Shown in pieces: positions 11,938-57,264 of a stretch of 64,000 nt of DNA (positions are counted from its first letter, which is position 1; each line of letters begins with the position of its first letter). This DNA is from Desulfuromonadales bacterium (GTDB lineage Bacteria > Desulfobacterota > Desulfuromonadia > Geobacterales > Pseudopelobacteraceae). The translations under genes and the position numbers were made by a program. The DNA lies in the NCBI GenBank assembly GCA_016650295.1, contig JAENWA010000036.1, forward strand, positions 1-64,000, in the 5' to 3' direction. The notes below the pieces were generated by a model. The model was not told the origin of the DNA and did no database searches. It was given only the letters and a program-made list of their open reading frames with translations.

Positions 11938-12411
11938 ATGACAAAGCCCTCTAAAAAATTTGTCTCTGACTACAGCCAAATGAGCTTATTTGATTTGCTC
12001 TTGGTAGAGCGTGACGAATTGTCGAGCAAGCGGCCCGGCCGGATGTGTATTTCGGCCAAGTTGCTGGCGTCGGTTAAGGGGGCTATCAAGCAAGCACCAA
12101 AAAGCCGAGAAACCTTGGCTGATGAGATGGCGGAACTTTCAGGGACTGAAATAACAGTACATATGCTCAACTCATGGTGTGCCGATTCACATCCTCACCG
12201 TTTGCCTGCCGAGTTTATACCTGCCCTCTGCATCGCCACTGGCTGCACGGAACCGCTACGGATTATGAATGAAGCATCAGGAGTATTCACAGTAGCCGGG
12301 CCGGATGCGCTCCGGGCAGAGATGCAAAAGGACGTTGAGGCAAAACGGAAGATCGAAAAGGGGATCCGTCAGAAAGAGGCACTGATCAAGGCGTTAGAGG
12401 GGAAACAATGA
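11938..12411 (+). CDS. Mu-like element protein of unknown function, upstream of transposase
   Basis: 157 residues, predicted soluble. It has a helical N-terminal region, a segment resembling a DNA-binding helix pair (RETLADEMAELSGTEITVHMLNSWCAD, about 60-88), and a basic, coiled C-terminal helix (AEMQKDVEAKRKIEKGIRQKEALIKALE). Similar proteins sit between ner and the transposase gene in many Mu-like prophages and are assumed to be regulatory or accessory. The stop overlaps the transposase start (ATGA, 12408-12411), showing translational coupling. An in-frame GTG at 11926 is an alternative start. Confidence 0.7.
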   Translation: MTKPSKKFVSDYSQMSLFDLLLVERDELSSKRPGRMCISAKLLASVKGAIKQAPKSRETLADEMAELSGTEITVHMLNSWCADSHPHRLPAEFIPALCIATGCTEPLRIMNEASGVFTVAGPDALRAEMQKDVEAKRKIEKGIRQKEALIKALEGKQ

Positions 12412-14711
12412 CCGTTGCCAACCCTTACTTCTGTATCGCTAAAATATCGGATATAGCCTCTGCATTTGGGCTGAGTCAGCAAGCTATCGATAAAAAGAAA
12501 AAAAAGTATGGTTGGCAAACAGTAAACAAAACCGGCGTTGATCAATTTAACATCGATACCATCTCCGGCCTTACGGATCAAGAGCGCAACAAAATTAAAG
12601 CATTTTTCACAATGCGAGACGGCAAGGCGCAGCTTCAGAAAGACCTTGCAGCAGTTGCGGAGATTGCCGCTCGTACTGTTGTCACACCTGCAGCGCTTCA
12701 AGAAACATCAGAATTACCCCGCACCTACCATCACCCAGCAAAAATCGCCGGAGCTGATGCCGTCAGAAAGCTGAAAGAACAGGAAACCCAAGCGATAGCC
12801 GACCGGCGGGAACAACAAGAGATGTACCTTGCCATGTTCAGCAGCTTGCCGGAATCCGCAAAGAATGCGGCTGAGGCACGGCACACCATGATAACCGCCT
12901 GTCAAACGTTTCTTGATGAAGGCGGCTTCAAGGGCCGGGTGAAGGATGGCCGCCAGCGATGGAATACCAAAGGCGTGAACACCTTTTGCCAAGCCTTCAT
13001 GGATGGCACGTTAGAACTACCGGCAGAGATAGCCGCAAACTTCACCCGCAAAGGGGCGCGGTCACTTACCCAGGCAATTCTGCTGATTTGGCGGGACACC
13101 TACAAGGAACAAGGTCTCTATGGCCTTGCCGACCATTACGCCAGCAAGGCCGGGGCAACTAGCTTGACCACGGCTCAACAAAACTTCGTGATCGGCATGA
13201 TTTACGAATTCCCGCATGTCATGCCGACCAAGGTTTATAAGGGGCTTAAAACCCGCTTTAAAGGTGAAGAAATCCCGACCAGGCACACTGTCGGCAGGTT
13301 CATGAAACACTGGAAAACGACACACGCCAGCCTGTACCTGTTCATCACCAATCCGGATGCATGGCGGAGCAAGCATATGTTTGCCTTTGGTTCAGCCAGT
13401 GAGCAGATAGTCAGACTGAATCAGCGGTGGGAGGCGGACAGTACCCCGGCGGATCTGTTGTGTACCGATGGCCGCTGCGCAGTGATCGGAATCATTGATG
13501 TTTGGTCACGGCGGTTGAAATTACATGTCTCCCCCACATCAAAAAGCGCCGCCATAGCCGCGCTATTCCGGCGGTGTCTGATTTCCTGGGGTGTTTTGGA
13601 AGAATTCCGGACTGACTGCGGGACCGATTACACCAGTTTCCATGTCGAAAGGGTATGCGATGCCCTGGACGTTGTTCATCACCTCTGCAATGAATTCCAC
13701 CCCGAAGAAAAGCCACATATCGAACGGGCATTCAAAACGTTTTCCCATGGCCTTGTTGAGCTGCTGCCGGGTTACGTCGGTCATTCCGTTGCCGACCGGA
13801 AAAACATTGAGGCCCGCAAGTCGTTTGCCAGCCGCTTGATGACCAAAGGGGAAACCCTGGAAGTACGTTTGACCATGGCCGAACTTCAAAAGATTTGTGA
13901 TCAGTGGTGTGAAACGATCTATCACCAGGACGCACACAGCGGCCTTGACGGTATGACCCCGGCGGCAAAGGCGCGTTCCTGGACGGAACCGATAGCCAGG
14001 ATAACCAATGACCGCGCCCTGGATATACTCCTCTACCCGGCACCGTCAAACGATGGCCTGCGCAAGATCGGCAAGAAGGGTGTGGAAGTCACCTTTAACG
14101 GCGTCAAGCTGTATTACAAGGCTGGGGAGTTTGCCGGACATGAAGGGGAGCAAGTCCGCGTCTTGATCGATGAAACCGACCTGGGGAGAGCGCCGATATT
14201 CCGGGAAAATGGAGATTTCTTAGCTTTGGCAGAAGATCCACATTGGCTGGGTATCAGCAGTCAGGAAGTGGCGCAAAAATCAAAGCAAAAACAAAAACAG
14301 GTACTTGCCGAACAGCGCCAGGAAATAAAGGTAATCGCCAAACAGGCGGACACGCGGAACATTGCAACCGAGATCCTGAAGGATCGGGCGGAACAAGCGG
14401 TAAAGATAACTGAGTTCCCTAAAAAATCAGATGAGTACTCCACTCCGGCGCTTGACCAGGCGGCGGCTGCCGTGGCGGAACGCGATCGGAAAACCGCCTT
14501 TGCCGGCGGCACGCCGATCACACCGGATGTGATGAGAAAATCAGAAGAGCTTATCCGCCGGATACCGGTACAGCCGAAAACCGGAATCGAGCGGGTATTT
14601 GAAATTGAGAAAAAAATGGAATCGGGCACGGCAACTGCTGAAGAGATCAGGTACGCCAAGGAGTGGCAGGAAATCGAATCCGGACCAATGAGGATACGTA
14701 AGGCAGGATAA
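12408..14711 (+). CDS. MuA-type DDE transposase
   Basis: This 767-residue protein catalyses strand cutting and joining at the element's ends. The N-terminal ~100 residues include a HTH-like DNA-binding region (ISDIASAFGLSQQAIDKKKKK). The RNase-H-like catalytic core shows Asp344 (WEADSTPAD), Asp403 (RTDCGTDYTS) and Glu439 (KPHIERAF), a D,D35E arrangement. A Mu-type beta-barrel follows, then a charged C-terminal domain that in MuA contacts the MuB ATPase. All catalytic residues are present and there is no frameshift, so the enzyme may be active. It overlaps the preceding gene by four bases and is followed by a hairpin and the MuB-like gene. Confidence 0.93.
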   Translation: MTVANPYFCIAKISDIASAFGLSQQAIDKKKKKYGWQTVNKTGVDQFNIDTISGLTDQERNKIKAFFTMRDGKAQLQKDLAAVAEIAARTVVTPAALQETSELPRTYHHPAKIAGADAVRKLKEQETQAIADRREQQEMYLAMFSSLPESAKNAAEARHTMITACQTFLDEGGFKGRVKDGRQRWNTKGVNTFCQAFMDGTLELPAEIAANFTRKGARSLTQAILLIWRDTYKEQGLYGLADHYASKAGATSLTTAQQNFVIGMIYEFPHVMPTKVYKGLKTRFKGEEIPTRHTVGRFMKHWKTTHASLYLFITNPDAWRSKHMFAFGSASEQIVRLNQRWEADSTPADLLCTDGRCAVIGIIDVWSRRLKLHVSPTSKSAAIAALFRRCLISWGVLEEFRTDCGTDYTSFHVERVCDALDVVHHLCNEFHPEEKPHIERAFKTFSHGLVELLPGYVGHSVADRKNIEARKSFASRLMTKGETLEVRLTMAELQKICDQWCETIYHQDAHSGLDGMTPAAKARSWTEPIARITNDRALDILLYPAPSNDGLRKIGKKGVEVTFNGVKLYYKAGEFAGHEGEQVRVLIDETDLGRAPIFRENGDFLALAEDPHWLGISSQEVAQKSKQKQKQVLAEQRQEIKVIAKQADTRNIATEILKDRAEQAVKITEFPKKSDEYSTPALDQAAAAVAERDRKTAFAGGTPITPDVMRKSEELIRRIPVQPKTGIERVFEIEKKMESGTATAEEIRYAKEWQEIESGPMRIRKAG

Positions 14712-14721
14712 CAAAAGAAAA

Positions 14722-14745
14722 AAGCCGGTGTTAGAGCACCGGCTT
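14722..14745 (+). terminator. Hairpin between transposase and ATPase genes
   Basis: AAGCCGGTG (14722-14730) and CACCGGCTT (14737-14745) form a perfect 9-bp stem with a six-base loop. An A-rich run precedes it, but it is not followed by a T-run. It may be a partial terminator, processing site or mRNA stabiliser that sets the ratio of transposase to ATPase. Confidence 0.45.
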
Positions 14746-14793
14746 CCAAGGCGGGGAACCGCCAAACTCTATAGACAGGAGGAAGCATAAACG

Positions 14794-15552
14794 ATGCGGA
14801 AAAATTTTGCAATAACCAAGAATGCCCGGCGGGTGTTGTTCGCCGTCAACACCCTGAACAGCAGTTCCCATGGTACGGAACGCATGGGGCTGCTGTATGG
14901 AATGCCGGGAGAGGGGAAGTCATGCACGGCGGATTGGTGCATCGATAAAACCGATGGCATAGTAATCAGGGCAAAGCGTTGCATGACCATGACCTCTTTT
15001 CTTCAGGAACTGGCAACCGAACTGCGGTGCCCGGAGAAAACCCGCCGGTCAAATCGTTCTGCGGTCATTATCGACAGCGTAATTGAACATCTGAACGAAC
15101 GGCCTCGCCCTCTGTTCGTGGATGAAATCGACACCTTCTTTTCTCCCCACAACCTGAAGAACGGAAACAACATCCTGGAAACCATCAGAGATATTCACGA
15201 CAGCGTAAGCGTCCCTATCCTGCTTATCGGTGAAGAGAACAGCGCTATTAATGTGCAGGAAAACAGCCGCTTTGCCCGCCGGGTTACGCAGTGGATTGAG
15301 CTGAAGGGTATTGACCTGGAGGACACGAAAACCGTTGCAACGACCATTTGTGAAGCAACGGTTGCCGATGATCTGCTTGACCACCTCTATCAGGAGGCGG
15401 GTGGCAACATTGGCCGTATCGTCATAGCCCTGGATGCGATCGAGCGACACTGCAAGGCCGCCGGGGTGGCTGAGATGGACGTGAAAGAATGGAGCGGGAA
15501 AGCACTGTTCTTCGACCAACCTGCCTTTGCCCGGAAGCGGGGCCGGGCATGA
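14794..15552 (+). CDS. MuB-type AAA+ ATPase, target-DNA activator
   Basis: A 252-residue ATPase with Walker A GMPGEGKS (residues 36-43) and Walker B PLFVDEID (106-112), in the AAA+ family of MuB/TnsC-like transposition regulators. It would bind target DNA, recruit the transposase and confer target immunity. A conserved sensor-like segment (ILLIGEEN) follows. AGGAGG lies eleven bases before ATG 14794. The stop overlaps the next gene's start (ATGA). The C-terminal tail is basic and short. Confidence 0.9.
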   Translation: MRKNFAITKNARRVLFAVNTLNSSSHGTERMGLLYGMPGEGKSCTADWCIDKTDGIVIRAKRCMTMTSFLQELATELRCPEKTRRSNRSAVIIDSVIEHLNERPRPLFVDEIDTFFSPHNLKNGNNILETIRDIHDSVSVPILLIGEENSAINVQENSRFARRVTQWIELKGIDLEDTKTVATTICEATVADDLLDHLYQEAGGNIGRIVIALDAIERHCKAAGVAEMDVKEWSGKALFFDQPAFARKRGRA

Positions 15553-15914
15553 GCGGCCGCAAGGGCATGAAGAAACTTCAGCCGGATCAGCACAGCGGAC
15601 GGGCGCGGATGTGGCGGGTTATGCGTCGTCGGATGGTCTTCTCGCTTGATGATCTGGTTATCCCTCTGGACGGGGTGAACAGCAATAATGCCGTGAAATT
15701 TATCAAAAATCTTACCATTCACGGCATTGTCCGCTTTGACCGATGGAGCGGTAAACGAGGTAAACCGGGCTGCTGCAAGGTCTTTCGTCTTATCCACAAT
15801 CCGGGACCGGTGCAGCCGACCATCTGCCCCACCTGCAAACAGCCAATAACAACCAAAGTGTGCGCACCGGTGCCGCCGGGTGAACAGCCGTTGCAGACAG
15901 GCGGTGCCGCATGA
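15549..15914 (+). CDS. Hypothetical, winged-helix-like protein with C-terminal cysteines
   Basis: 121 residues, starting at ATG 15549 inside the preceding stop. A basic N-terminal region and a segment with winged-helix character (VNSNNAVKFIKNLTIHGIVRFDRWSG, about 45-70) suggest nucleic-acid binding. CPTCKQPITTKVC near the C-terminus could bind a metal. Such small basic genes are usual between the MuB and gemA genes of Mu-like elements. No specific function can be assigned. Confidence 0.7.
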   Translation: MSGRKGMKKLQPDQHSGRARMWRVMRRRMVFSLDDLVIPLDGVNSNNAVKFIKNLTIHGIVRFDRWSGKRGKPGCCKVFRLIHNPGPVQPTICPTCKQPITTKVCAPVPPGEQPLQTGGAA

Positions 15915-16222
15915 CCAGACAAGACCTGATGAAGCGCTTCCGGGATACGGTTGATGAACTTGGGCAATCAGAAGTTGCCAGGCGTATCGGCAAGTCATCT
16001 TCAGCCGTCAACCAGGTATATCACGGGACATACCAGGCTGAACCGTCTGTCTTGTTGCGACGGTTTGAAGAGGAATTCTGCGGCACTACCATCAAATGCC
16101 CGGAGATGGGGGAAATCAGTTTGAAAAGATGCAGCGATGAGCGCGGCACGCCGCTTTCCGCATCAAGTCCCCGGCGGATCAGAATGCACAAGGCATGCAA
16201 GGAATGTGGAGGGAAACCATGA
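15911..16222 (+). CDS. Small HTH protein of the element
   Basis: 103 residues with an N-terminal lambda-repressor-like helix-turn-helix (GQSEVARRIGKSSSAVNQVYHG, about residues 18-39). A cysteine-containing tail (CPEM...CKECGGKP) follows. It overlaps its upstream neighbour by four bases and its downstream neighbour by four, so it is part of one tightly packed transcript. It probably regulates element genes. The partner site is unknown. Confidence 0.75.
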   Translation: MTRQDLMKRFRDTVDELGQSEVARRIGKSSSAVNQVYHGTYQAEPSVLLRRFEEEFCGTTIKCPEMGEISLKRCSDERGTPLSASSPRRIRMHKACKECGGKP

Positions 16223-16461
16223 ATGAAACCCTGGAGAACCTCAACTGCGAACTGTTACAGCTACAAGCCCTTCTTAATGTGATGGCTATTGCAGCGGAGA
16301 AACTGGAAGGCACACAGCACACACAACACCACAGAGACCTTATCTATTGGGGCGGGGTGTATGATCTTGCCAAGGGACTTGTTGAAAAGGCACTGGAATA
16401 TGCTTCTGACTTGGAAATGTACTGCGATAAAGAGGAGGCCACCATTGAAACACACAAATAA
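16219..16461 (+). CDS. Hypothetical small helical protein
   Basis: 80 residues from ATG 16219, which overlaps the preceding stop. It is predicted almost wholly alpha-helical (NCELLQLQALLNVMAIAAEKL; DLAKGLVEKALEYASDLEMY) with no recognised motif. Its 3' end contains the ribosome binding site and TTG start of the next gene. Confidence 0.65.
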   Translation: MNETLENLNCELLQLQALLNVMAIAAEKLEGTQHTQHHRDLIYWGGVYDLAKGLVEKALEYASDLEMYCDKEEATIETHK

Positions 16462-16726
16462 ACTTCCGAATGTTGAACAACAGATGATGATTGAGGCAAT
16501 AAGCCGCCTGAATTACATCTCTGATGAATTACGAGAAATCCAGCAGGCGGCTATTTTTTTAGGAACAGTGTCCACCGATCCGGAAAATGAATATTCAGAT
16601 GATTTGATGGTTGGTGCGGCCGTCTGTTTTGAAATGCTTGATGAGAGGTTTGGCAGGGTTATAGGTGTTGTAGAAAAACTTACTTCGGAGGTGAAAACAT
16701 ATGAAGTCCATATGCAAACGCATTGA
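16445..16726 (+). CDS. Hypothetical small protein with a TTG start
   Basis: 93 residues. No ATG or GTG lies in a suitable place, but TTG 16445 is preceded at six bases by GAGGAGG (16432-16438), so translation very probably begins there. This overlaps the previous gene by 17 bases. The product is helical (MIEAISRLNYISDELREIQQA; GRVIGVVEKLTSEVKTYEVHM) and resembles its upstream neighbour in size and helix content, perhaps an old duplication. Function unknown. Confidence 0.65.
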   Translation: MKHTNKLPNVEQQMMIEAISRLNYISDELREIQQAAIFLGTVSTDPENEYSDDLMVGAAVCFEMLDERFGRVIGVVEKLTSEVKTYEVHMQTH

Positions 16727-16826
16727 ACTGTTGACCAGACTTGAAACCACTTTAGCCCGGCGCAAGGCTGCCAGGCGGGCCGCACGATCCGCCGTACACA
16801 TGGCACTGAAAGGTTGCAGGTCATAG
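16701..16826 (+). CDS. 41-residue basic peptide
   Basis: A short frame starts at ATG 16701 with a strong binding site (GGAGGTGA 16687-16694) inside the 3' end of the previous gene, and ends at TAG 16824-16826. The peptide is highly basic (LARRKAARRAARS) with a predicted amphipathic helix, and could bind nucleic acid. It leads straight into gemA. Confidence 0.55.
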   Translation: MKSICKRIELLTRLETTLARRKAARRAARSAVHMALKGCRS

Positions 16827-16831
16827 CGCCT

Positions 16832-17341
16832 ATGAAAAAGCCAACTATCATAACCGCCGCACAGATAAAGAAAATCCATGTCCTGAAGGGGTCGCTGGCC
16901 TTGGATAACGACACGTACCGGGCCATGCTTGCGGAGCAATTCCGTGTGGCCTCTTCCAAAGAGCTATCAAGCATTCAGGCCACTGCCTTTATCACCGACC
17001 TGGAACAAAAAGCGGTTGCCGCCGGGCTCTGGGAGAAGCGGAATACTTTCCCGGCCAAAGGGACAAGGCGCAACCAGGTCAAGAAGTTTGAAGACCTGGA
17101 GGCCAGGCGCGGCAACATGGCTTCACCGGCACAACTCCGGAAGATCGAGGCGCAATGGTCAGACGTGACGCGGGCGGAAACTCCGGAAACCAGGAAAAAG
17201 GCCTTGCGTCACTTCCTGGAGCGAGTGGCGAAGATATCTGACCTGCGCTTTCTGGATGCCGCCGGAGCGGGCAAGGTTATCAACGCCTTGACCGTGATGC
17301 AGAGACAGGTTGAACCAGGGAAACGGAAAAAAGCAGTTTAA
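16832..17341 (+). CDS. GemA/Mu gp16-like regulatory protein (DUF1018)
   Basis: 169 residues match the phage Mu gp16/GemA family: an N-terminal IHVLKGSLALDNDTYRAML segment, the central MASPAQLRKIEAQW motif (about residues 93-106), and a C-terminal helical region ending in a basic tail. In Mu, GemA modulates host gene expression and DNA supercoiling genes. ATG 16832 is preferred; an in-frame TTG at 16814 is possible. Its presence at this position is strong support for the Mu-like nature of the element. Confidence 0.82.
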   Translation: MKKPTIITAAQIKKIHVLKGSLALDNDTYRAMLAEQFRVASSKELSSIQATAFITDLEQKAVAAGLWEKRNTFPAKGTRRNQVKKFEDLEARRGNMASPAQLRKIEAQWSDVTRAETPETRKKALRHFLERVAKISDLRFLDAAGAGKVINALTVMQRQVEPGKRKKAV

Positions 17342-17364
17342 CTTTACGATCAGGGGACAAGCTA

Positions 17365-17595
17365 ATGAGCAAACCAATTAACATTTTTGATGAAATGGAT
17401 AACAGCATTTCCATCGTTGCTTTTATGAATACCTCACTTGTTTCAATATCTGCCCAAAAAATGCAGCTTGGCGAGGATGAGATAAGCGGTATGCAACAGA
17501 TCCTTTTCAACCTGGAAGATAAATTGAGGGGTATGGACGACTTTCTAACAGATCACATGAAGCGGGACAAAGCAGCGCCTGAAGGCAAAGCTTAA
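17365..17595 (+). CDS. Hypothetical small protein
   Basis: 76 residues, soluble and acidic in the middle (LGEDEISGMQQILFNLEDKLRGMDDFL). ATG 17365 has AGGGGA upstream. Nothing recognisable. After it, 17596-17738 is non-coding and contains GCAAATTTGC followed by a T-run near 17684-17699, possibly a weak terminator. Confidence 0.6.
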   Translation: MSKPINIFDEMDNSISIVAFMNTSLVSISAQKMQLGEDEISGMQQILFNLEDKLRGMDDFLTDHMKRDKAAPEGKA

Positions 17596-17738
17596 AAATG
17601 ACCGTAGAGGGGTTTTAACCGCCAGGGCATAGCAGGGGGTGAGGGGTGCATTGAAACGTAAAGAGTTAACAGGTGGTTAAAAGGCAAATTTGCGGTTTTT
17701 GAATAACATGCAGCATCACTGACCAAGGGAAACCCACT

Positions 17739-17945
17739 ATGAAAAAGATTCAGGAGATTCCTATCCGTATTGAAATTATCAACGGCAACCCCCGGTTCAC
17801 ACATCACAGCCTGGAAATACTGGAGAGCTTCGGGATTGCGGCGAGGGGAAGCGGAATCTATATCGCGAAGTCCGGATATATCGACAGGGGGATTGTGGTG
17901 AGGCAGCCAGAAAACGGCAACATCAATGACAAGGGGGATTTATAA
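17739..17945 (+). CDS. Hypothetical small protein
   Basis: 68 residues starting at ATG 17739, preceded by AAGGGAAA. It has a compact alpha/beta pattern (IPIRIEIINGNPRFTHHSLEILESFGIAARG). No family recognised. It is separated by only three bases from the coiled-coil gene that follows, so the two are probably co-transcribed. Confidence 0.6.
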   Translation: MKKIQEIPIRIEIINGNPRFTHHSLEILESFGIAARGSGIYIAKSGYIDRGIVVRQPENGNINDKGDL

Positions 17946-17948
17946 GAA

Positions 17949-18542
17949 ATGTTCAAATCAAAACAAGAAATTTCGATTGAAAAGCTGAAGTCAACAATCA
18001 CCAATAAATTGAATCATTCGGCAGCAGAAGCCACACGGAAGCTGGTAGAAGCCGAAAATTCCATCACCGACCTGTCGCAAGCCATAGAAGCCGCCACTGA
18101 TAAGATGTACGAGGCTGAGATGAACCTTCAGCGGGGCCAGGCTCACACAAAGCCGGACAAAAAGGTACTTGACGCAATCAGTGCCTCGATTCTCGAGATT
18201 CAAACACTCGACGGGACTATTAAGGCTTGGAAAACAAGGCTTGAGGCTCTCCAGAAAGAGCGTGACGGGCTACTGCACGGCGTGAAACTGGAAGTTGAGC
18301 AGATCTTTGGTGCTGTCAGAGCGGAGCTTCAAAAGCAAGTCGACGCTGAGGCGGCAACCCTGATGGCGTTTCTGATCTCAGTAGAAAACGCGCTGGAAGA
18401 ATGCCGGCCGGTCGACAATTACGTTCCTTGCCTCAAAGGTGTCTCTGCTGTTGTTCCCGGTTTTGCCTATCTGTCGCACTGCAAACCGAAAGAACTCGTA
18501 AGATATCTGCACAAAAAAGCGCCCTGGTGGGTATGTAGTTAA
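17949..18542 (+). CDS. Coiled-coil protein upstream of the capsid gene
   Basis: 197 residues. The first ~130 are strongly heptad-like (TRKLVEAENSITDLSQAIEAATDKM; ILEIQTLDGTIKAWKTRLEALQKERDGLL); the rest forms a short globular tail ending WWVCS. Directly upstream of a capsid gene, a coiled-coil protein of this size would fit an assembly scaffold. That is only a positional inference, and no scaffold or protease motif is visible. The spacing to the capsid gene is 24 bases. Confidence 0.65.
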   Translation: MFKSKQEISIEKLKSTITNKLNHSAAEATRKLVEAENSITDLSQAIEAATDKMYEAEMNLQRGQAHTKPDKKVLDAISASILEIQTLDGTIKAWKTRLEALQKERDGLLHGVKLEVEQIFGAVRAELQKQVDAEAATLMAFLISVENALEECRPVDNYVPCLKGVSAVVPGFAYLSHCKPKELVRYLHKKAPWWVCS

Positions 18543-18566
18543 ATTCAGTTGTAAGGAGAAAAGGAA

Positions 18567-19568
18567 ATGGCAAAGCACTTGAGCAAAGAAATGTATTCCG
18601 AAGCGAGCCGAACGGGAGTGACCTTTACGGAGATCCTGGGAACCGTATCACCTTCGAAGATTGAGAGCCTTGATGCCTTCGAGTTTGCGCTGATGGAGCG
18701 CGGCATCAACCCGAAAAAGGGGACGGTGGAGCAGTTCTATACTTCCACTGAGAACAGCATACTTTTCCCTGAATTCATCAATCGGAACGTACGCATCGGG
18801 CTGACCCAGTCAAGCAAGAAGGAAGTGGTTCCTGAAGACCTGATTGCCACCACAGTGTTTATCGATAGCGGTCTGTATGAGGCAGTCAAGGCGGAGTTTA
18901 GCGAAAAGGAGGTTGAATACAAGAGAATATCAGAAGGCGCAAAGTTCCCCAGTGTGACCATCTCCAAAGGTGATAAGGAGATCCGCCTTGTCAAAATTGG
19001 GGTTAATCTGAATGCACCCTATGAAGCGCTGAGACGTATGAAATTGCCCTTGCTGGCGACTCATATCCAGCTTCTGGGAAGGCGGCTGAGACAGACGATG
19101 GTGGCCATAGCCGTCCACACTCTGGTTAATGGTGACGGCAACGGGAACCAGGCAACAATAAACCAGAGGGCAATGAGTTACGCCACACTGGTGGAGTTTC
19201 TGCTGGCGATGTCACCCTGGGAGTCTACGATCTGGTTCGCGAAAAAGGAACTGATCGAGGAACTGCTTCTGTTACCTGAGTTACAGGGCAGCGGGCTGTT
19301 CAATACTTCAGAGGGAGGCCTTGCGAAGCTCCTCGGCAATCCCCTGAAAAAGTTCGAATGGCCAAAAACCGATCTTGGAAACAACCAACTCTTCCAGGTT
19401 GATAAAAACGCTGCCCTGGAACTGATAAAGGAGGCTGGTTCCGAACTTGCTGAAACTGACAAAGTCATAACCCGGCAAACGGAGCAAACGTCAATCAGCC
19501 TGGTTTTCGGGATGTCGAAGATTTTCGATGAAGCGGCAATTATTTTTGAAAAATTGGTTCAACAATAG
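18567..19568 (+). CDS. Phage major capsid-like protein
   Basis: 333 residues resembling phage major capsid proteins: an N-terminal arm, the LFPEFINRNVRIGLTQ segment, a beta-rich central portion (FPSVTISKGDKEIRLVKIGVNLNAPYEAL), a long spine-helix region (LLGRRLRQTMVAIAVHTLVNGDGN) and a C-terminal strand (QTEQTSISLVFGMSKIF). The fold is probably HK97-like, inferred from the pattern only. GGAGAAAAGGA lies before ATG 18567. No portal, protease or terminase gene accompanies it, which is unusual for a capsid gene. It might serve in an incomplete particle or a satellite. Confidence 0.72.
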   Translation: MAKHLSKEMYSEASRTGVTFTEILGTVSPSKIESLDAFEFALMERGINPKKGTVEQFYTSTENSILFPEFINRNVRIGLTQSSKKEVVPEDLIATTVFIDSGLYEAVKAEFSEKEVEYKRISEGAKFPSVTISKGDKEIRLVKIGVNLNAPYEALRRMKLPLLATHIQLLGRRLRQTMVAIAVHTLVNGDGNGNQATINQRAMSYATLVEFLLAMSPWESTIWFAKKELIEELLLLPELQGSGLFNTSEGGLAKLLGNPLKKFEWPKTDLGNNQLFQVDKNAALELIKEAGSELAETDKVITRQTEQTSISLVFGMSKIFDEAAIIFEKLVQQ

Positions 19569-19690
19569 CCGGTCAATCTCAACTTGTTGCGAAACAGGGG
19601 GTTTCCCCTGTCTGCTGGAAATGGCCTACCGGCACTGATGAGCAAGGCCAAAAGTAACGGGTAATGTCGTTTAATCTGAAAGGAAAGGGC

Positions 19691-19846
19691 ATGGCACACG
19701 ACATGGATAACTTACTGAAAAGTGATGACGTGATTGTCATGGAGCAAGAAGCATACAACAATCTGCTGCAAATCATCGAGCGTCAAAAGCATGAAATTCA
19801 TACTCTTGAATTCCGGATCAAAACTCTCTTGAGTGGGGACAAATAA
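19691..19846 (+). CDS. Short coiled-coil peptide
   Basis: 51 residues from ATG 19691 (AGGAAAGGG six bases upstream). An in-frame ATG at 19664 would add nine residues. It is acidic and then helical (NNLLQIIERQKHEIHTLEFRIKTLL, a likely coiled coil). Function unknown. Confidence 0.55.
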   Translation: MAHDMDNLLKSDDVIVMEQEAYNNLLQIIERQKHEIHTLEFRIKTLLSGDK

Positions 19847-19849
19847 CCC

Positions 19850-20434
19850 ATGCACATGGCGATTTCTTCCGACGATTGGCTTGCACTTAACACACAGCAC
19901 TGCAACCGGTACCATGCCCGGATGACCCCGGCTGTCTGTACCGAGAACCAGCTAAAGACGGACAATTATCTTTGTTCCGGATGTAGCGGCCTGGAAGATG
20001 TCCAATGGGAATTGGAGCGCCGGGAACCGGTCGTTATCCCCTGTGCGCCGGAAGCTGATGACCCCATGACTCAGGCACTGGCCGGGGCACTACAAGACAT
20101 TCTCGACGGGAAAGAAGATGAAGAGCTGCCGGAGGATCCGGAAGGGGATGAACTTGATGATGAGCTGGTGGAAGAGGAGCTTAACGGATTTCACTACAAG
20201 CTTCTAGCGCTTATGGATTGCGAGCCTGAAGAACCGGAACCGGAGCGCAGGCCGAATCTGGAACATAAAAGGCCCCGGCGGGTTGCTGTGTATATGGGCC
20301 GTTGCCCTCGATGTTCCGGGTATGTGATTAATGACCCTGAAATGCAGTTTGCCGATCGTGACAATGAAGCCTATCGCTGCTTTTCCTGCGGTTGGCGGAC
20401 TTCCCCGGCCTATGAATGGAACCGGCAACAATAA
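19850..20434 (+). CDS. Acidic phage protein with cysteine pairs
   Basis: 194 residues. An N-terminal part with CNRYHARMTPAVC and CSGC could bind a metal. The central stretch is very acidic (about 75-110, rich in Glu/Asp). The C-terminal part is a zinc-ribbon-like module, with CPRCSGYV and CFSCGW about 35 residues apart. Small zinc-ribbon proteins are common among transposable phages (for example Com-type regulators), but I see no specific match. Confidence 0.65.
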   Translation: MHMAISSDDWLALNTQHCNRYHARMTPAVCTENQLKTDNYLCSGCSGLEDVQWELERREPVVIPCAPEADDPMTQALAGALQDILDGKEDEELPEDPEGDELDDELVEEELNGFHYKLLALMDCEPEEPEPERRPNLEHKRPRRVAVYMGRCPRCSGYVINDPEMQFADRDNEAYRCFSCGWRTSPAYEWNRQQ

Positions 20435-20457
20435 TTTTTGAAGAAAGGCAAAAATCC

Positions 20458-20736
20458 ATGAAAGCAACGATTACTCTTGAAGACACTGAAACGGGCAATG
20501 TAACTATTAATTGTGCATTTTCTGAACCTGTAACGGACAAAACCCAATCAGTAGCGGTATTGCTGACAATGGCAATCATGATGTGCGCTTGTAAGGCCGG
20601 TGCGGTTAACATGTACCAGCATGAGGGTTCAGAGACTCCTGGATATGCAGTGATGAATAGAAAAACTTATCGTAAAACGTTGTACATGATTGACAAACGC
20701 ATCATGGAATTTACTGGAAAACTGCATGGAAAATAA
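20458..20736 (+). CDS. Hypothetical small protein with hydrophobic segment
   Basis: 92 residues from ATG 20458. One central hydrophobic helix (SVAVLLTMAIMMCACKAGAV, about 31-50) could be a membrane segment or a buried helix. The flanking parts are polar. It ends 11 bases inside the first of two duplicated DNA-binding genes. Unrecognised. Confidence 0.55.
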   Translation: MKATITLEDTETGNVTINCAFSEPVTDKTQSVAVLLTMAIMMCACKAGAVNMYQHEGSETPGYAVMNRKTYRKTLYMIDKRIMEFTGKLHGK

Positions 20737-21067
20737 GCACGTTGCAGCCAGCGTTATCCGAGCGGAAAGGGTTTTGAAGGCGACTCTCGCAGCGCTCAAT
20801 CTGCCTGTGCGTGGCAGTTACAGCAACAAGGAAGTTTGCGATATTTTGGGTATCGGAACGGCAACCTTCTGGCGGCTGATCCGCGCGTATGGAAGGGATG
20901 GAAACGGCCGCCTGCTGCGCCCTGAATCCCTCGACTCTTTTGTTTTATCGAGCCACCGGCGCGTAAATTACGTGGAGCTTTTGGACTTTATCAGACGGAA
21001 CAACGGCCTGGAGCGTGAGGGCTTGCAGAACACGAAAGCCGGGCAACCACAAAAGGGAGACCAGTAA
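20726..21067 (+). CDS. HTH protein, first of a tandem pair
   Basis: 113 residues with a MerR/excisionase-like winged helix: VRGSYSNKEVCDILGIGTATFWRLIRAYG (about residues 27-55), followed by the RR(V)NYVELLDFIRRNN segment. It is clearly paralogous to the next gene, which shares LNLPVRGSYSxxEVCxILGI and TFWRL. It is probably a DNA-binding regulator or directionality-type factor of the element. It overlaps the preceding gene by 11 bases. Confidence 0.7.
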   Translation: MENKHVAASVIRAERVLKATLAALNLPVRGSYSNKEVCDILGIGTATFWRLIRAYGRDGNGRLLRPESLDSFVLSSHRRVNYVELLDFIRRNNGLEREGLQNTKAGQPQKGDQ

Positions 21068-21071
21068 CCAA

Positions 21072-21392
21072 ATGGACTATTCAACAAAGAATGCTATCCA
21101 GGCAGGAAAGACCATTGAGGCAGCCTTAGCAGTGCTGAATCTTCCGGTGCGTGGCAGTTACAGTCCAAATGAGGTCTGCAACATTCTTGGCATTGTTAAT
21201 CGAACATTCTGGCGGCTTACCCGGCAATATGAGCTTGATGAGAAAGGCAATTTACGGCGTCCCGATTGTCTGAAGAGCTTCCTGCTGGGAAAAAACCGCC
21301 GCGTCCCCTACCTGGAATTGGTGGATTTTATCCGAAGAAATGATGAATACCTGCGAAACAACGAGCGGAAAGACGACCAGGCTGGCCAATAA
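21072..21392 (+). CDS. HTH protein, second of a tandem pair
   Basis: 106 residues, paralogue of the preceding gene, with the same order of motifs: LNLPVRGSYSPNEVCNILGI, TFWRLTRQYELD and RRVPYLELVDFIRRN. The two copies have diverged throughout but keep length and helix-turn-helix spacing, so both are probably functional. ATG 21072 follows GGGAGA. It is followed after ten bases by the tape-measure gene. Confidence 0.7.
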   Translation: MDYSTKNAIQAGKTIEAALAVLNLPVRGSYSPNEVCNILGIVNRTFWRLTRQYELDEKGNLRRPDCLKSFLLGKNRRVPYLELVDFIRRNDEYLRNNERKDDQAGQ

Positions 21393-21402
21393 AGGAGCAA
21401 AC

Positions 21403-23508
21403 ATGGAAAGCATATTTAAACTGGGAATTTTAATCAAGATGACTGACATGGTCTCAGGGCCGATGCAGGCGATTTCGCGGAGCATGGCTGGCCTGAAAAC
21501 TAAAGCCGCTGAGCTGCAGCCTGTCTTTGACAAGTTCAAAAGCATAGGCATGCCGTTGGCGGCTGCCGGTGCGGCCATAACCGCCATGCTGACAGGGACG
21601 GTTATGGCCACGGTTGCCAGCCAGAAGGCATTAGGGGAACTCTCATCGGTAGGGGTGAAGGATCTGCGGGCGCTGGAAATTGCCGGACAGGAGTTTTCCA
21701 ATAAGTGGTCAGGAACCACCAAAGCCCAGTTTATAGCAGCCGCCTACGATATCAAGGGCGGCATTGCCTCACTGTCCGACCTGGGAGTGGCCGAGTTTGC
21801 CAAACTGGCGGCATTGACCGGCAAAGCGACAAAGAGCACTACACAAGAGATGACCAGCCTGTTTGCCACCGGCTACGGCATCTATAAGGATCAGTATAAA
21901 AACCTGAGCGACATGCAATTCGGGCAGATTTTTTCCGGTGCGATCGCAGCCGGGGTCAACATATTCAAGAGTACCGGTTCCAACATGGCCGGGGCGATCG
22001 AAAACCTTGGCGCGTCCGCCACGGTGGCCAAAATACCGTTGCAGGAACAAATCACTGTCCTGGGGATGCTGCAAGCAACCATGTCGGGGAGAGAGGCGGG
22101 CACCGCCTACAAGGCATTTTTCCGCGACGTGGGCGGGGCCGGGAAAAAGCTCGGCTTGCAGTTCTACGATGCCGCCGGCAACCTGAAGAACATAACCACT
22201 ATCATGGGGCTGTTGAAGGGCAAATTTGGCGACCTGTCGGGTGTGGAAGGCAACATTCTGCAGAAGGCCTTTTCCGATGAGTCGTATCGGATGATTTCAC
22301 AGTTGTACACCAAAACCGGCGAGCTGGGCAGCAACATCCAACTGCTCTTTGACGCCATGAAACAGGGCACCGTCTACACTGAACAAATGGCCAGCGCCAT
22401 GAACCAGGACATCGGCGCGGGCATGGGCGTACTCGGACAGCGCCTGCACAACCTGTGGGAAATCCTCGGCAAGCTGCTTATCCCTATTCTCGCGCCGTTG
22501 TTCACCTGGCTCGGCAACGGTATCCTGATTCTCCAGCGGTGGGCCGAAAAGCACGAAACACTGACCCGCGTAATCGTGGTAAGCCTGGCGGTCATCGGCT
22601 CGCTGTTGTTTATTTTGGGCGGGTTGGCGACGGTGATCGGCGTGATCGGCCTCGGAATACCGGCCGTGATAACCGGGATGGGGTTGATCAGCGGGGCGTT
22701 TGCAACGGCTACGGCCGGCGCCTGGGGGTTTGTAACAGCACTCTGGGCAACCGGTATTCCTCAAATAATTATTGGTATTGTGGCCCTGGGTGCAGGGCTG
22801 GCCTGGCTGTACATGAAATTCGAGACCGTCCAGACCGCCATCCAGTTTTTCAATTTCTTCCTGGGCTATCTGCTGGGCCAGCTCGTTAAGGTGGGCATGG
22901 GTTTTTATACCGCCCTGGCCCATCCGCTGTTGTTTATCCAATCGCTGATCTGGGGATTGGGCCAGATGCTGGGCGGCATCGGCAGTATGATGTTCAACTC
23001 CGGCCGCATGATTGTTACCACCCTGGTGGCCGGGATCAAGTCCATGGCCATGGGACCGGTCAATGCCATCAAGGAAATCTTCAGCAAGATCCGCAACCTG
23101 CTGCCCTTCTCGGACGCCAAGGAAGGTCCCCTGTCCCAGCTGACTCTCTCCGGATCACGGATCATGCAGACCCTGGGTGTCGGCATCACCGGCGCGGCCC
23201 CAGGTCTGCACAAGGCCATGGCCGGTGCCCTGGCAGGTGTGGCTCTGGCTACCTCGATCGGGATATCCCCGGCCATGGCCGCCCTACCGAAACCGCAACC
23301 GCTCCCGGTGGCCCCTGCTTTTGCGTCCGCGCCAGGCGCGACAAATGCACAAACAACGAAACTAACCACATCCGGAGACAACAGAGACGGTCGCAAAACC
23401 ATAAATATTCAACATCCGACATTTAACATAACTCTGCCAAATGTCAGCGATGGAAAGAGTTTTATGCAGGAACTACAAAGATTGGTGGAGGGGCACGATG
23501 TCAACTGA
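21403..23508 (+). CDS. Tail tape-measure protein
   Basis: 701 residues from ATG 21403 (AGGAG seven bases upstream). The N-terminal third matches TP901-type tape-measure proteins (MTDMVSGPMQAISRSMAGLK; AYDIKGGIASLSDLGVAEFAKLA; ATMSGREAGTAYKAFFRDV). Several long hydrophobic segments follow (about residues 400-480) and then a Gly/Ala-rich helical region, typical of the family. In a tailed phage it sets tail length and helps DNA ejection. No tail tube, sheath or assembly chaperone genes are found, although a nearby gene pair usually encodes chaperones upstream. It is the last protein gene of the element. Confidence 0.85.
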   Translation: MESIFKLGILIKMTDMVSGPMQAISRSMAGLKTKAAELQPVFDKFKSIGMPLAAAGAAITAMLTGTVMATVASQKALGELSSVGVKDLRALEIAGQEFSNKWSGTTKAQFIAAAYDIKGGIASLSDLGVAEFAKLAALTGKATKSTTQEMTSLFATGYGIYKDQYKNLSDMQFGQIFSGAIAAGVNIFKSTGSNMAGAIENLGASATVAKIPLQEQITVLGMLQATMSGREAGTAYKAFFRDVGGAGKKLGLQFYDAAGNLKNITTIMGLLKGKFGDLSGVEGNILQKAFSDESYRMISQLYTKTGELGSNIQLLFDAMKQGTVYTEQMASAMNQDIGAGMGVLGQRLHNLWEILGKLLIPILAPLFTWLGNGILILQRWAEKHETLTRVIVVSLAVIGSLLFILGGLATVIGVIGLGIPAVITGMGLISGAFATATAGAWGFVTALWATGIPQIIIGIVALGAGLAWLYMKFETVQTAIQFFNFFLGYLLGQLVKVGMGFYTALAHPLLFIQSLIWGLGQMLGGIGSMMFNSGRMIVTTLVAGIKSMAMGPVNAIKEIFSKIRNLLPFSDAKEGPLSQLTLSGSRIMQTLGVGITGAAPGLHKAMAGALAGVALATSIGISPAMAALPKPQPLPVAPAFASAPGATNAQTTKLTTSGDNRDGRKTINIQHPTFNITLPNVSDGKSFMQELQRLVEGHDVN

Positions 23509-23553
23509 CGGCTAGTTTAATAAGATGGCAACGCCCATTAAGTAATCAATCTT

Positions 23554-23647
23554 GTCACGGCTGAGATAGGCAAACCATAAGCCGTGACCTCGCAACTCAT
23601 CCGTTACGATCAGTTTCAGTGAGTTGCGACACTCCTACTATGGTTTG
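23554..23647 (+). ncRNA. Structured RNA with a perfect H-type pseudoknot
   Basis: Three perfect 9-bp helices can form. Stem A: GTCACGGCT 23554-23562 with AGCCGTGAC 23580-23588. Stem B: CAAACCATA 23571-23579 (in the loop of A) with TATGGTTTG 23639-23647. Stem C: CGCAACTCA 23591-23599 with TGAGTTGCG 23620-23628, lying between A and B'. B ends exactly where A' begins, so A and B would stack coaxially as in a classic pseudoknot. No reading frame spans it. Strand is inferred from the T-rich run at 23700-23706 and from the direction of the element; the pairing works only as RNA of one strand or its complement. A regulatory or structural RNA is likely, but the class is unknown. Confidence 0.7.
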
Positions 23648-24070
23648 TCAGGGGCAATGAAGAGGGGAGACCCCGGCTATGTGCCGCTAACCTTCTTACT
23701 TTTTTTCAAGCCGTTTACGGCGATCGTAGGCGGTTTGAAAAAGGGTTCACAACAATAACGGAGTGTATCCCGGTTGACGTAGTTAACAAGCTTGTAAAGG
23801 GGTCTTAAAGGTAATTTGAAGCGCTGATTACAGCGAAAAATCTTGGTAGAGATGGGCTATGAAAAAGGAATCCAGGGGGGAAAGGCCGCTTGCTCGCTAG
23901 AGTTGCGGCTTTTATGTATCATGCTGATATTGTTATATTTTGTAAAAATTATGGCCGCTCTTTACATAAATACCATTCGCGCGGTTACAGAACGAGGCTT
24001 TTCATTCAAATCATTCCACCTCTAGCAAGTCCAAAAAGTGTGAATAAAGTATGAATGTAAAGCGAATAAC
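23648..24070 (+). other. Non-coding right end of the element with further RNA-like structure
   Basis: No convincing gene is present between the pseudoknot and tRNA-Asn. Several foldable pieces are visible. GGGGAGACCCC lies at 23664-23674. TTTTTCAAGCCG pairs with CGGTTTGAAAAA (about 23702-23742), with one G-U pair. ACAAGCTTGT near 23788 is palindromic, CGCTG/CAGCG form a hairpin at 23822-23835, and GGCCGC/GCGGC(C)T lies at 23884-23912. The loop of stem C (TACGATC) is complementary to GATCGTA at 23722-23728, a possible kissing contact. TGTAAAGC at 24056-24063 may be a transposase end site. Confidence 0.4.
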
Positions 24071-24074
24071 AAAA

Positions 24075-24106
24075 AAGGCACTTACAAGAAGTCTTGTAAG
24101 TGCCTT
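24075..24106 (-). terminator. Terminator of tRNA-Asn
   Basis: A 15-base arm (AAGGCACTTACAAGA, 24075-24089) is the exact reverse complement of 24092-24106. Read leftwards it is followed by a T-run (A-run 24071-24076 on the plus strand). It lies eight bases beyond the 3' end of the tRNA gene, so it is a Rho-independent terminator. It also sits at the right border of the mobile element. Confidence 0.9.
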
Positions 24107-24113
24107 GAATTGT

Positions 24114-24189
24114 TGGCTCCCCTTCACGGACTCGAACCATGGACAAGGTGATTAACAGTCACCTGCTCTACCAACTGAGCTAAAGGGGA
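24114..24189 (-). tRNA. tRNA-Asn (GTT)
   Basis: On the minus strand a complete cloverleaf of 76 bases can be drawn. The acceptor stem is TCCCCTT/AAGGGGA with discriminator G, and CCA is encoded (24116-24114). The D arm is TAGCTCAGTTGGTAGAGC, and the anticodon loop CTGTTAA gives GTT (asparagine). The T arm is TTCGAGTC. All invariant positions are present. Confidence 0.97.
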
Positions 24190-25427: not shown

Positions 25428-28400
25428 ATGGTCGCCATGTCCCTTTACGAAGCCCATAAGCAATTCGCCTGGCCGTCACCGGATCAGATTCTCGATCCCT
25501 CCGGCGCCGGTCCGAATGTCTTTGCCCATCTTGCCAAGGAAAAGCTGGGAAAGGCTATTGAACGCTTGCGGGATGGCGCTGGTGTCAAGGTTGGGATATT
25601 GGCGGCGAGTCCCGAAGACGATGCCACGGAATCCCCCCTGGCAATCGTCTGTGAGTTTCAGCGGACCGCTTCGGAGAAGACCTTGCAGGAGGCGCACCGA
25701 CTGGCCTGGAACTTTAGTTATGCGCCAATGCTGATTACCATAGAGCCGGGTCTGGTCAGGGCCTGGTCATGTTGTGAAGAGCCACCCGCCGTCAACGAAC
25801 TTAACCCCCTCAAGGCACAGATCCATCGATACAAACTGAATGCTACGGCGGATCATGGCGATCTGTCATCACAAGCCGCCGGCTCCCTGCACTGGGTGCA
25901 ACTGGTTTCCGGGCAGTATTTCAAGGACAACGAATCCCACTTCAAGCGCAACCACTGCGCCGACTACCTGCTTCTGGAAAACCTGAAAGGTCTACGCCGG
26001 AAACTGATGGAAGAAAAAGGGCTTGATCAGGATATCTGCCATGACCTTCTGGCCCGTATCATCTTTGTTCAATTTCTCTTCCATCGCAAGGATTCAAAAG
26101 GCAGACCCGCGCTTGATGCAACCCGCTTGAACAGGTTGTATGAAGATCGCATATTGTCCGCCAGATATGAAGAGCTGGCGCAGATACTCGAAAATCATGA
26201 CGACAGTTACGCCCTGTTTCAATGGCTGAACAATAAATTCAACGGCGACCTGTTCCCCGGCAAGGCCCAGACTGAGGAAGAACGGCAGGCTGAATGGCAG
26301 TTGGAAAAGGACAACGTCAGGCCGGAACATCTTAGTTTGCTTGCCGATTTCATCAGTGGAAACATTGAGGTGGGCAGCGGTCAGATCTCCCTTTGGCCGC
26401 AGTATTCATTCGATGCAATCCCTATAGAATTTATCAGCAGTATCTATGAAACCTTCGTCGGCAAGAAAAAAGGGGTTGTCTATACGCCCGGCTACCTGGT
26501 TGACTTCATACTGGATGGCGTCCTGTCGTGGAACGATGAAAACTGGGATGTGAAGATACTGGATCCCGCCTGCGGATCGGGAATTTTCCTGGTCAAGGCG
26601 TATCAGCGCCTGATCCATCGCTGGAAAAAGGCCAACCGCCAAGAACCGAGAGCCGAGGTGCTGCGAGGCCTGCTGGAACGCAACCTGTTCGGCGTCGATA
26701 TCGACCCTCATGCGGTCCGGGTGGCTTCCTTCAGCCTTTATCTGGCCATGTGTGATGCGATTGATCCGCGTCATTACTGGGATCAGGTGAAGTTTCCTCA
26801 GCTGCGAAACCGGCGGTTGATTGCGTCCGATTTCTTTGTCGATGATATCCCCGGTTTCAGGACGGAAGAGGATAAGGGGATCTATGATCTGGTAATTGGT
26901 AATGCGCCGTGGGGTAAAAACATTGCCGGTGAACCGGCAAAACAATGGGCGAAAAAGCACCATTGGGGACTCTCATATGGTGATGTCGGCCCGCTATTTT
27001 TACCGAAGGCCTCAGCGCTCATCAATGATTCCGGTTATCTGTCCCTGTTCCAACCAGCCATGAATCTGTTGTTCAACCAGTCCGGACCGGCGCAAAAATT
27101 CAGGAGCCGCTTGTTCGAAGAATTCAAGGTTGAAGAAGTGGTGAACCTTTCTGCCCTACGTTTCAGCCTGTTTGATAAAAAAGCTATTTCACCCGCCTGC
27201 ATTATCACCATGCGTTCCTGTGCGCCGGATGCCGAACCACTTACCTATATCTGTCCCAAGCCCACATGTTCCAGCTCGGACGATTACCGGGTGGTCATCG
27301 AGCCGCACGATGTGAACAAGGTGTATCCGCATGAAGCCGTGACAAACGCCTTGGTCTGGAGTGTCCTGATGTGGGGTGGGCGGCGTGATTTATACTTAAT
27401 CAAAAGGTTGCAGGAAGCAAACTGTTTATTGAAGCTTGAACGAGAGAAGGTCGCAATTACGCGAGAAGGAATTATACGTGGTGGCGATGGCGCCAAAAAG
27501 AACCATGTAGCGACTCTTGAAAGGCGAATTTTAGAGACAAAAAGTTTTCCCGAAGGCACCTTCATGTACTTGGAAGACAGCAAGCTACCCGTTAATAAGA
27601 ACCCATACACTCATCGTCTTACCGATCTAAATGCATTCAGTTTGCCTCAATTGATTCTTAAACAGAGCTGGCAAAAAAATGATTGGCGGTTCCAGTCAGT
27701 CATTGTCAAAAGTTCTGAAAATGAAAATGGCATTGTCTGCGATGACAGCTATGTCAGCGTTCATATCGCTGGCGAAAAATCCAAATGGCTTGAATCCGCA
27801 TGTCTCAGCTACAATAGCAAGGTTGCGGTTTATTATTTGTTGTTGGCGAGCGGCAGATTCGCCTCGTACAGGCCTTCCATCAATGTTGAAGACATGTTAA
27901 GCGTTCCGATTCCCAATCCAGACAACATCTCACTTGCGGACATAACGAGCTATGACGATATTGATGTCATGGTACGCAAGGCTTTTGATTTCAAAGAGAG
28001 CGAATGGACCCTTGTCGAGGATCTCTTTGCTAATACGCTGCCTGATTTTAAGGAAGGGAGCGTTTCACCGGGGAGAGCACCGACATGGAGAAAGCAGTAT
28101 TTGGAAGATGAAACCTTATCTTTGTATTGTCATTCCTTCCTGAAAGTCCTGCGGGCTGGATTTGGTGCGGATATACGTGTATCAGCCACCATATTTCAGG
28201 AGAAAGAATCGTTCCTGCCTGTCCGGATGGTTGCCATCCATTTTGACTCCTCTGGCGACGGCGATATCCGCCACGAACCAATTACCTCTCCCGCCCTGCT
28301 GGCCCGTCTTCAGGAGTTGAATACCAAGTTTATGGACATCTCCAAGGCAAAAGGTGGCATTTTCTATCAACGGGTGGTCAGGGTGTACGATTCGGTCGAA

Positions 28401-28571
28401 ATCAACGGTCAGAACGTGCCAACGGTCTATCTGATAAAGCCGGATCAAGTCCGCTATTGGACCCGCTCCATGGCGTTGCGGGATGCGGACGATGTTGCTG
28501 CGGATGCAATGTTGTGGAGGAAGCAGGCACTTTCCGACGGTGCAACGGATACGGAGCGCGTAAGTGCATAG
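25428..28571 (+). CDS. Large N6-adenine DNA methyltransferase, system A
   Basis: 1047 residues. The gamma-type methyltransferase core has motif I LDPACGSGIFLV (about residues 376-388) and motif IV NAPW (492-495; a P-to-A change from the usual NPPW). The N-terminal ~180 residues resemble the N-terminal nuclease-like domain of Eco57I-type enzymes, but the putative catalytic strand reads LAIVCEFQ, without the ExK lysine. The C-terminal ~400 residues should hold target recognition. ATG 25428 is used; ATG 25437 is an alternative. It overlaps a PD-(D/E)XK gene by eight bases, so the two form a restriction-modification-like pair. It shares segments with the second system at 51 kb. Confidence 0.85.
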   Translation: MVAMSLYEAHKQFAWPSPDQILDPSGAGPNVFAHLAKEKLGKAIERLRDGAGVKVGILAASPEDDATESPLAIVCEFQRTASEKTLQEAHRLAWNFSYAPMLITIEPGLVRAWSCCEEPPAVNELNPLKAQIHRYKLNATADHGDLSSQAAGSLHWVQLVSGQYFKDNESHFKRNHCADYLLLENLKGLRRKLMEEKGLDQDICHDLLARIIFVQFLFHRKDSKGRPALDATRLNRLYEDRILSARYEELAQILENHDDSYALFQWLNNKFNGDLFPGKAQTEEERQAEWQLEKDNVRPEHLSLLADFISGNIEVGSGQISLWPQYSFDAIPIEFISSIYETFVGKKKGVVYTPGYLVDFILDGVLSWNDENWDVKILDPACGSGIFLVKAYQRLIHRWKKANRQEPRAEVLRGLLERNLFGVDIDPHAVRVASFSLYLAMCDAIDPRHYWDQVKFPQLRNRRLIASDFFVDDIPGFRTEEDKGIYDLVIGNAPWGKNIAGEPAKQWAKKHHWGLSYGDVGPLFLPKASALINDSGYLSLFQPAMNLLFNQSGPAQKFRSRLFEEFKVEEVVNLSALRFSLFDKKAISPACIITMRSCAPDAEPLTYICPKPTCSSSDDYRVVIEPHDVNKVYPHEAVTNALVWSVLMWGGRRDLYLIKRLQEANCLLKLEREKVAITREGIIRGGDGAKKNHVATLERRILETKSFPEGTFMYLEDSKLPVNKNPYTHRLTDLNAFSLPQLILKQSWQKNDWRFQSVIVKSSENENGIVCDDSYVSVHIAGEKSKWLESACLSYNSKVAVYYLLLASGRFASYRPSINVEDMLSVPIPNPDNISLADITSYDDIDVMVRKAFDFKESEWTLVEDLFANTLPDFKEGSVSPGRAPTWRKQYLEDETLSLYCHSFLKVLRAGFGADIRVSATIFQEKESFLPVRMVAIHFDSSGDGDIRHEPITSPALLARLQELNTKFMDISKAKGGIFYQRVVRVYDSVEINGQNVPTVYLIKPDQVRYWTRSMALRDADDVAADAMLWRKQALSDGATDTERVSA

Positions 28572-57100: not shown

Positions 57101-57178
57101 AAAAAAAGACCCCTACCTCGAATTTGAAGTAGGAGTCATTAGCTTTTGAAAGCGGTTCTGGCGAACTCCATCGCCGTT
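57101..57178 (-). promoter_or_regulatory. Fluoride riboswitch with overlapping terminator
   Basis: On the minus strand the aptamer reads ACGGCGATGGAGTTCGCC (57178-57161), then AGAACCGCTTTC, then AAAAGC (hairpin 57153-57142), then TAATGACTCCTAC (57141-57129). This matches the crcB-motif (fluoride) consensus closely. The 3' part, GACTCCTAC (57137-57129), can instead pair with GTAGGGGTC (57116-57108), followed by seven Ts. Fluoride binding should therefore prevent termination. It controls the crcB-DUF190 operon 178 bases downstream. Confidence 0.93.
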
Positions 57179-57264
57179 GAAGGTACGTAGTAATAAACGC
57201 TATTGCGCCTCTGCAGTCAAACGCATTTCCTTGCCATGCGTTGAAATGGCATGCAGCCCATTAA

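Follow-up and report, generated by a model that had tools for sequence, protein, structure and literature searches.

Prophage-borne hammerhead ribozymes flank single genes; it has been proposed that they divide phage transcripts into mRNAs of gene length, and cleavage has been shown for the hammerhead arrays that were tested (PMC3088659). Searches near ribozyme-associated genes led to the discovery of the twister sister, pistol and hatchet ribozymes (PMC6154101); most RNAs found by such association are without shown cleavage, and one of them, RAGATH-18, turned out to be a TnpB guide RNA (PMC11061315). The RNA described here was found in a window of 64,000 nucleotides, the whole stretch of DNA that was analysed, and its closest research category is that of the RAGATH motifs, which share gene neighbourhoods with hammerheads and are candidate ribozymes by association; it differs in that no family held in Rfam matches it. 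Like the type II hammerhead (RF02276), it occurs on the sense strand behind the stop codons of element genes, in the same elements and sometimes in more than one copy per element. The two nevertheless have no common sequence or fold, the hammerhead being a three-way junction of ~66 nt and the new RNA a double pseudoknot of ~150 nt, and whereas cleavage by the hammerhead is proven, the new RNA is a candidate only, known from sequence.

A preliminary description of the window had reported a three-helix RNA at positions 23554-23647, and its three perfect stems are exact. Helix A is formed by GTCACGGCT (23554-23562) and AGCCGTGAC (23580-23588), helix B by CAAACCATA (23571-23579) and TATGGTTTG (23639-23647) and helix C, which is 10 bp long, by TCGCAACTCA (23590-23599) and TGAGTTGCGA (23620-23629), in the order A-B-A'-C-C'-B' with no spare base between B and A'. 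The 64-kb window has 39 perfect stems of at least 9 bp within 100 nt in total; the RNA locus is the sole site with three of them inside 110 nt, and only one other site, at 38536, has two. The extent of the RNA had been underestimated, since a second pseudoknot, a stem (E) and a hairpin (D) follow 3' of the interval first recognised and carry the structure to about 23702. The whole RNA (23549-23702, + strand) is a double pseudoknot of five to six helices and ~150 nt, which a 146-position covariance model with the window sequence itself in its seed (R2, see below) matches in its own genome at 106 bits (E 7.5e-32). Pseudoknot-free folding of this segment gives a minimum free energy of -53.4 kcal/mol (z = -3.3), and 0 of 200 shuffled sequences were equally stable.

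Read along the + strand, the 5' strand of helix A is followed by a loop, GAGAYAGG (23563-23570), that is kept across homologues and whose terminal GG joins helix B, so that the 5' strand of this first pseudoknot reaches through 23569-23570 and its partner spans 23639-23649. Hairpin C (23590-23629) lies between the 3' strand of helix A and that of helix B. A pyrimidine-rich CUCC(U) with an anti-Shine-Dalgarno-like character recurs between hairpin C and B' (23630-23638), in the window as in the homologues. The 5' strand of pseudoknot 2, GGGG (23651-23654), pairs with CCC(C) at 23671-23674, and helix E (23660-23666 with 23691-23697) encloses the conserved core GAGACCCCGGCUAUGUGCCGCUAA (23667-23690), which includes hairpin D (23674-23677 with 23683-23686) and near-invariant GAGA and GCUAA motifs.

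Relatives of the RNA came to light in a search of 57 related genomes, as short suggestive matches directly 3' of the 23554-23647 interval. Two of them (G006 and G054) have other letters in the same A-B-A'-C-C'-B' layout, and next to it a conserved core of the form CAGGGGC..(E)..GAGACCCCGGCUAUGUGCCGCUAA..(E'). A model of the core only (R1) and one of the full RNA (R2, 19 members) give 20 convincing matches, which lie in 16 genomes out of the 277 Desulfuromonadia searched (the best at E 1.5e-35), and a phylum-wide sample of 395 genomes gives one further place (E 1e-7), in a genome outside the Desulfuromonadia part. Pattern scans add a Nitrosomonadales MAG (L070) and the IMG/VR contigs L005, L053, L071-L073 and L130, the RNA of the last being the same as that of L126, which brings the distinct homologues to ~25, mostly from Desulfuromonadia. 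Excluded from this number are weak R1 matches (L035-L052, E 0.006-0.05), of which those printed have neither the 5' pseudoknot nor the conserved core, and three loci with R2 E values of about 1e-3 to 1e-2 per genome (L119, L122, L129), while pattern matches with no confident R1 match (L055-L057, L059, L063, L066-L068) were taken as chance. A search of phage records for DNA similarity to the RNA found none.

Covariation was assessed on a plain MAFFT alignment of the 19 members with anchors set by conserved sequence. Among the 564 cells of the 31 pairs tested, 91.5% pair, compared with at most 45.6% when the partners are slid by 1-3 columns; both-sided changes are seen at 20 of the 31 pairs, and 0 of 500 shuffles match any of these measures. 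The double changes are distributed over helix A (6/6 counted pairs), helix B (5/11), helix E (7/7, with 93.8% of cells paired) and hairpin D (2/4, with 100% paired). Swapping partner strands between sequences breaks the complementarity of helix A (permutation z = 12.5), of helix B (z = 8.8) and, with some of its strands imperfectly cut, of helix E (z = 8.3). Hairpin C has unrelated sequences among the homologues and is more stable than its shuffles (z below -1) in 16 of 19. The homologues preserve A, B and C by extensive compensatory change, as the preliminary description had proposed to check. Loss of the pairing in homologues, or coding across the stems, which it had named as contrary evidence, was looked for and neither was found: across the members, stops occur in varying frames and no extension is conserved in any frame.

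In the main type of the RNA, pseudoknot 2 is nearly unvaried as GGGG/CCCC. A second subtype (type-2) comprises L115, L117, L118, L125, L126, L128 and one of the copies in L054 (L054b, 3838-3974, - strand), and there the same pseudoknot covaries, with GGGA/UCCC, UGGA/UCCA and UGGC/GCCA forms read off the sequences. The type-2 members also have GCCCCC in place of GCUAA, and GAGAC is altered along with it. To our knowledge, few structured RNA classes with comparable covariation are still undescribed, and two pseudoknots are found in very few.

When the window and the homologues were scanned with 4227 families of Rfam 15, the check that had been proposed at the outset, no family reached its gathering score over the RNA, and raising the limit to E 5 brought up nothing there but chance matches below threshold; what Rfam finds elsewhere are tRNA, 5S, fluoride riboswitch and hammerhead II. 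The fluoride riboswitch of the window lies at 57123-57184 on the - strand (RF01734, 61 bits). The RNA is accordingly a candidate new class, as first suspected, by comparison with the families held in Rfam, and a published RAGATH motif that was not deposited there could be the same. GOLLD and ROOL, to which the RNA had been likened as other ornate, prophage-associated RNAs, give no match in these scans, and both, at several hundred nucleotides, are much larger. Mu-gpT-DE (RF03012), to judge from its name, is a structured RNA that follows a Mu-like gpT capsid gene, a slot that the new RNA also occupies (for example in L005); its model has 53 positions, however, and its best score of 18.6 bits against a 49-bit cut-off is at background level and elsewhere in the genomes, with no match in the L005 record and none above cut-off in the carriers of the RNA. 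The hammerhead core, CUGAUGA ... GAAA with three stems, is absent from the RNA, and the hammerheads are separate RF02276 elements. The twister ribozyme is a double pseudoknot in which a CUAA strand faces a GAG strand, and its catalytic U-A step lies in this conserved CUAA loop. The new RNA, too, is a double pseudoknot with CUAA opposite GAG, a likeness that is superficial and a lead only: a search up to E 5 brings up no twister match, and type-2 members have CCCC for CUAA. The CUAA/GAGA pair may instead be what we take to be a UAA/GAN-type internal loop. An HDV-like arrangement (P1-P2-P3-P3'-P1'-P4-P4'-P2'), in which a hairpin P3 separates P2 from P1', has no room for P3 in the window, where B abuts A', and no HDV family matches; a fold of the 3' half resembling a group I intron is contradicted by helix E, which varies at every position, and by the lack of a conserved G site.

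The window copy belongs to an element whose genes encode a Mu-like transposase (12408-14711, + strand; PHROG 310, E 1e-71), a MuB-like ATPase (14794-15552, + strand; PHROG 296, E 7e-38), GemA, a coiled-coil protein, a major head (capsid) protein (18567-19568, + strand; PHROG 3922, E 9e-65) and a tail tape-measure protein (21340-23508, + strand; PHROG 28, E 2e-48; Pfam PhageMin_Tail, E 4e-19). The last of these lies directly upstream of the RNA, its stop codon ~45 nt ahead. The non-coding position behind a tape-measure gene is as first described, and only the distance to the downstream tRNA-Asn gene (24114-24189, - strand) had to be corrected, to ~0.4 kb. The region from 12023 to 24075 has the appearance of a compact Mu-like, satellite-like element with a very incomplete set of virion genes, in which no portal or terminase was recognised; L011 and L130 are likewise reduced, the latter to coiled-coil, tape-measure and IS630-like transposase genes. 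A search for terminal inverted repeats of the window element gave a 13-nt match (23884 with 12023) at best, with ~0.05 expected by chance, which is not convincing. Close to the presumed right end of the element lies an Eco57I/MmeI-like restriction-modification methylase gene (25428-28571).

Most relatives belong to Mu-like elements and two, L012 and L013, to tyrosine-integrase elements, by gene identities that were read from the sequences and in part scanned. A same-strand stop codon of a phage-type gene precedes the start of the RNA by 4-19 nt in about 20 of 25 members, and where a downstream gene is present its ribosome-binding site and start codon usually follow ~15-90 nt after the RNA. The upstream gene varies in identity (coiled-coil protein, capsid, tape measure, resolvase). 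L013 and L054 have two copies of the RNA each, and Geomonas propionica Red259 has three along with a hammerhead. The RNA had been regarded as a feature of the end of a Mu-like element, a view that the homologues do not bear out, being usually between genes and directly behind a stop codon. The element gene block closes with the RNA in three cases, those of the window, L011 and L061, where an opposite-strand tRNA gene (window and L011) or a host cytochrome gene (L061) comes next, and the constant partner of the RNA is for this reason the upstream gene. An RNA guiding insertion beside tRNA genes, as the ends of the window element and L011 might suggest, was rejected: most copies lie between genes, and L061 ends in the cytochrome gene. 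IS630-like transposases are encoded repeatedly close to the RNA or at the end of these elements (L014, L053, L064, L130), and in L014 a hammerhead lies directly behind the transposase stop codon. The coiled-coil protein of L130 was sought in phages and none was found.

Type II hammerheads also frequently abut stop codons, and they occupy equivalent slots in the same elements. That of the window (19587-19653, + strand; RF02276, 38.7 bits against a cut-off of 37, E 2.4e-4) begins 19 nt past the capsid stop. Other matches are found in G215:C53 (two, one under the cut-off), in G027:C57 (one, under the cut-off) and in L061 (G271:C210; two, one under the cut-off), where a well-scoring one follows the RNA at a distance of 3 nt; in L070 a degenerate-looking hammerhead is closely downstream of it. 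Recurrent nearness to hammerheads or to their neighbour genes, the criterion behind the RAGATH motifs, is seen here in 4 of about 17 RNA-bearing elements, which have an RF02276 match within 5 kb where ~4e-4 would be expected per element, given 43 matches at E up to 0.01 in the 277 genomes. This co-occurrence has a probability of ~1e-10 under a uniform model; both RNAs are confined to phage-like DNA, and the association may arise in part from this shared habitat.

The slots shared with hammerheads suggest a part in the maturation of late mRNAs, by self-cleavage or by protection of cleaved ends. The reading we favour, with confidence that is about evenly balanced, is that of a new class of cis-acting 3'-UTR or intercistronic double-pseudoknot RNA which matures late mRNAs in one of these ways, and which would thus act on its own transcript. 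The late region of the compact Mu-like or integrase-borne phage-like elements would be transcribed as one long RNA, in which the module would fold behind certain stop codons, as the A/B pseudoknot, hairpin C and then the core of E, D and pseudoknot 2, and would fix the 3' end of the upstream mRNA. It might do so by cutting the transcript itself, a possibility to which we assign roughly half the weight of this reading, or as a compact structure that shields the end produced by cleavage. Interchangeable slots fit cleavage, while the tandem of RNA and hammerhead in L061 fits protection, since a second cut would be redundant. A new self-cleaving ribozyme class, a ~150-nt double pseudoknot that would replace or complement hammerheads behind the stop codons of late operons in Mu-like and satellite-like elements and cut the polycistronic mRNA into single-gene messages, can be put forward tentatively, as less likely than not; the substitution of GCCCCC for the near-invariant GCUAA in type-2, with GAGAC changed, sits uneasily with one catalytic core in that subtype.

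Other roles were weighed against the same observations. The constancy of the upstream stop codon, as opposed to the downstream gene, is the reason for favouring a 3'-UTR role over a ligand-sensing riboswitch, which we regard as improbable: the complex fold with its near-invariant core and the ribosome-binding site that often follows would suit one, but the genes that follow are unrelated structural ones, it is the distance to the upstream stop that stays constant, and the window, L011 and L061 have no same-strand element gene downstream at all. The same 4-19 nt spacing past a stop codon recalls retroviral pseudoknots, which stimulate readthrough or frameshifting from such a position. A stimulator of this kind is very improbable here and largely refuted, as the open reading frame would have to continue past the stop, whereas in many members the upstream frame meets a new stop within 2-14 codons, all three stop codons are used and an extension is conserved in no frame. 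We give practically no credence to a chance or palindromic DNA feature, such as a transposase or attachment site with no RNA role. The window copy does lie near the presumed end of its element, yet no convincing end repeats are found there, most homologues lie between genes, and the covariation, extending to pseudoknot pairs, G-U forms and strand-specific loops, refutes it.

The frequent location of the RNA behind a coiled-coil gene (L011, L012, L053, L061, L070, L071, L130) or a capsid gene (L005, L054b and probably L072) raises the prospect of an operator or a packaging or assembly RNA, bound by a coat, scaffold-like coiled-coil or other protein that represses translation or marks the RNA. 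This is an unlikely alternative, since no one protein family is found in every carrier, few genes being shared between the Mu-like and the integrase elements, since the gene upstream may also encode a tape measure or resolvase, and since a site behind a stop codon instead of over a start site would be unusual for an operator. A free small RNA acting in trans, as an antisense, a sponge or the guide of a nuclease or transposase, would accord with the terminator-like hairpin after some copies (L005, L011) and with the precedent of RAGATH-18 (PMC11061315). We consider it decidedly unlikely, as no promoter-like + strand site precedes the window copy, no TnpB-, IscB- or Cas-like gene was recognised among the flanking ORFs inspected, and the RNA has no variable guide-like segment and is tightly linked to stop codons. 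The recurrent location of the RNA behind stop codons, which hammerheads share, opens to direct testing the old question of what self-cleaving RNAs do in prophages: the RNA would be either another ribozyme class or a partner that protects the mRNA ends that ribozymes make.
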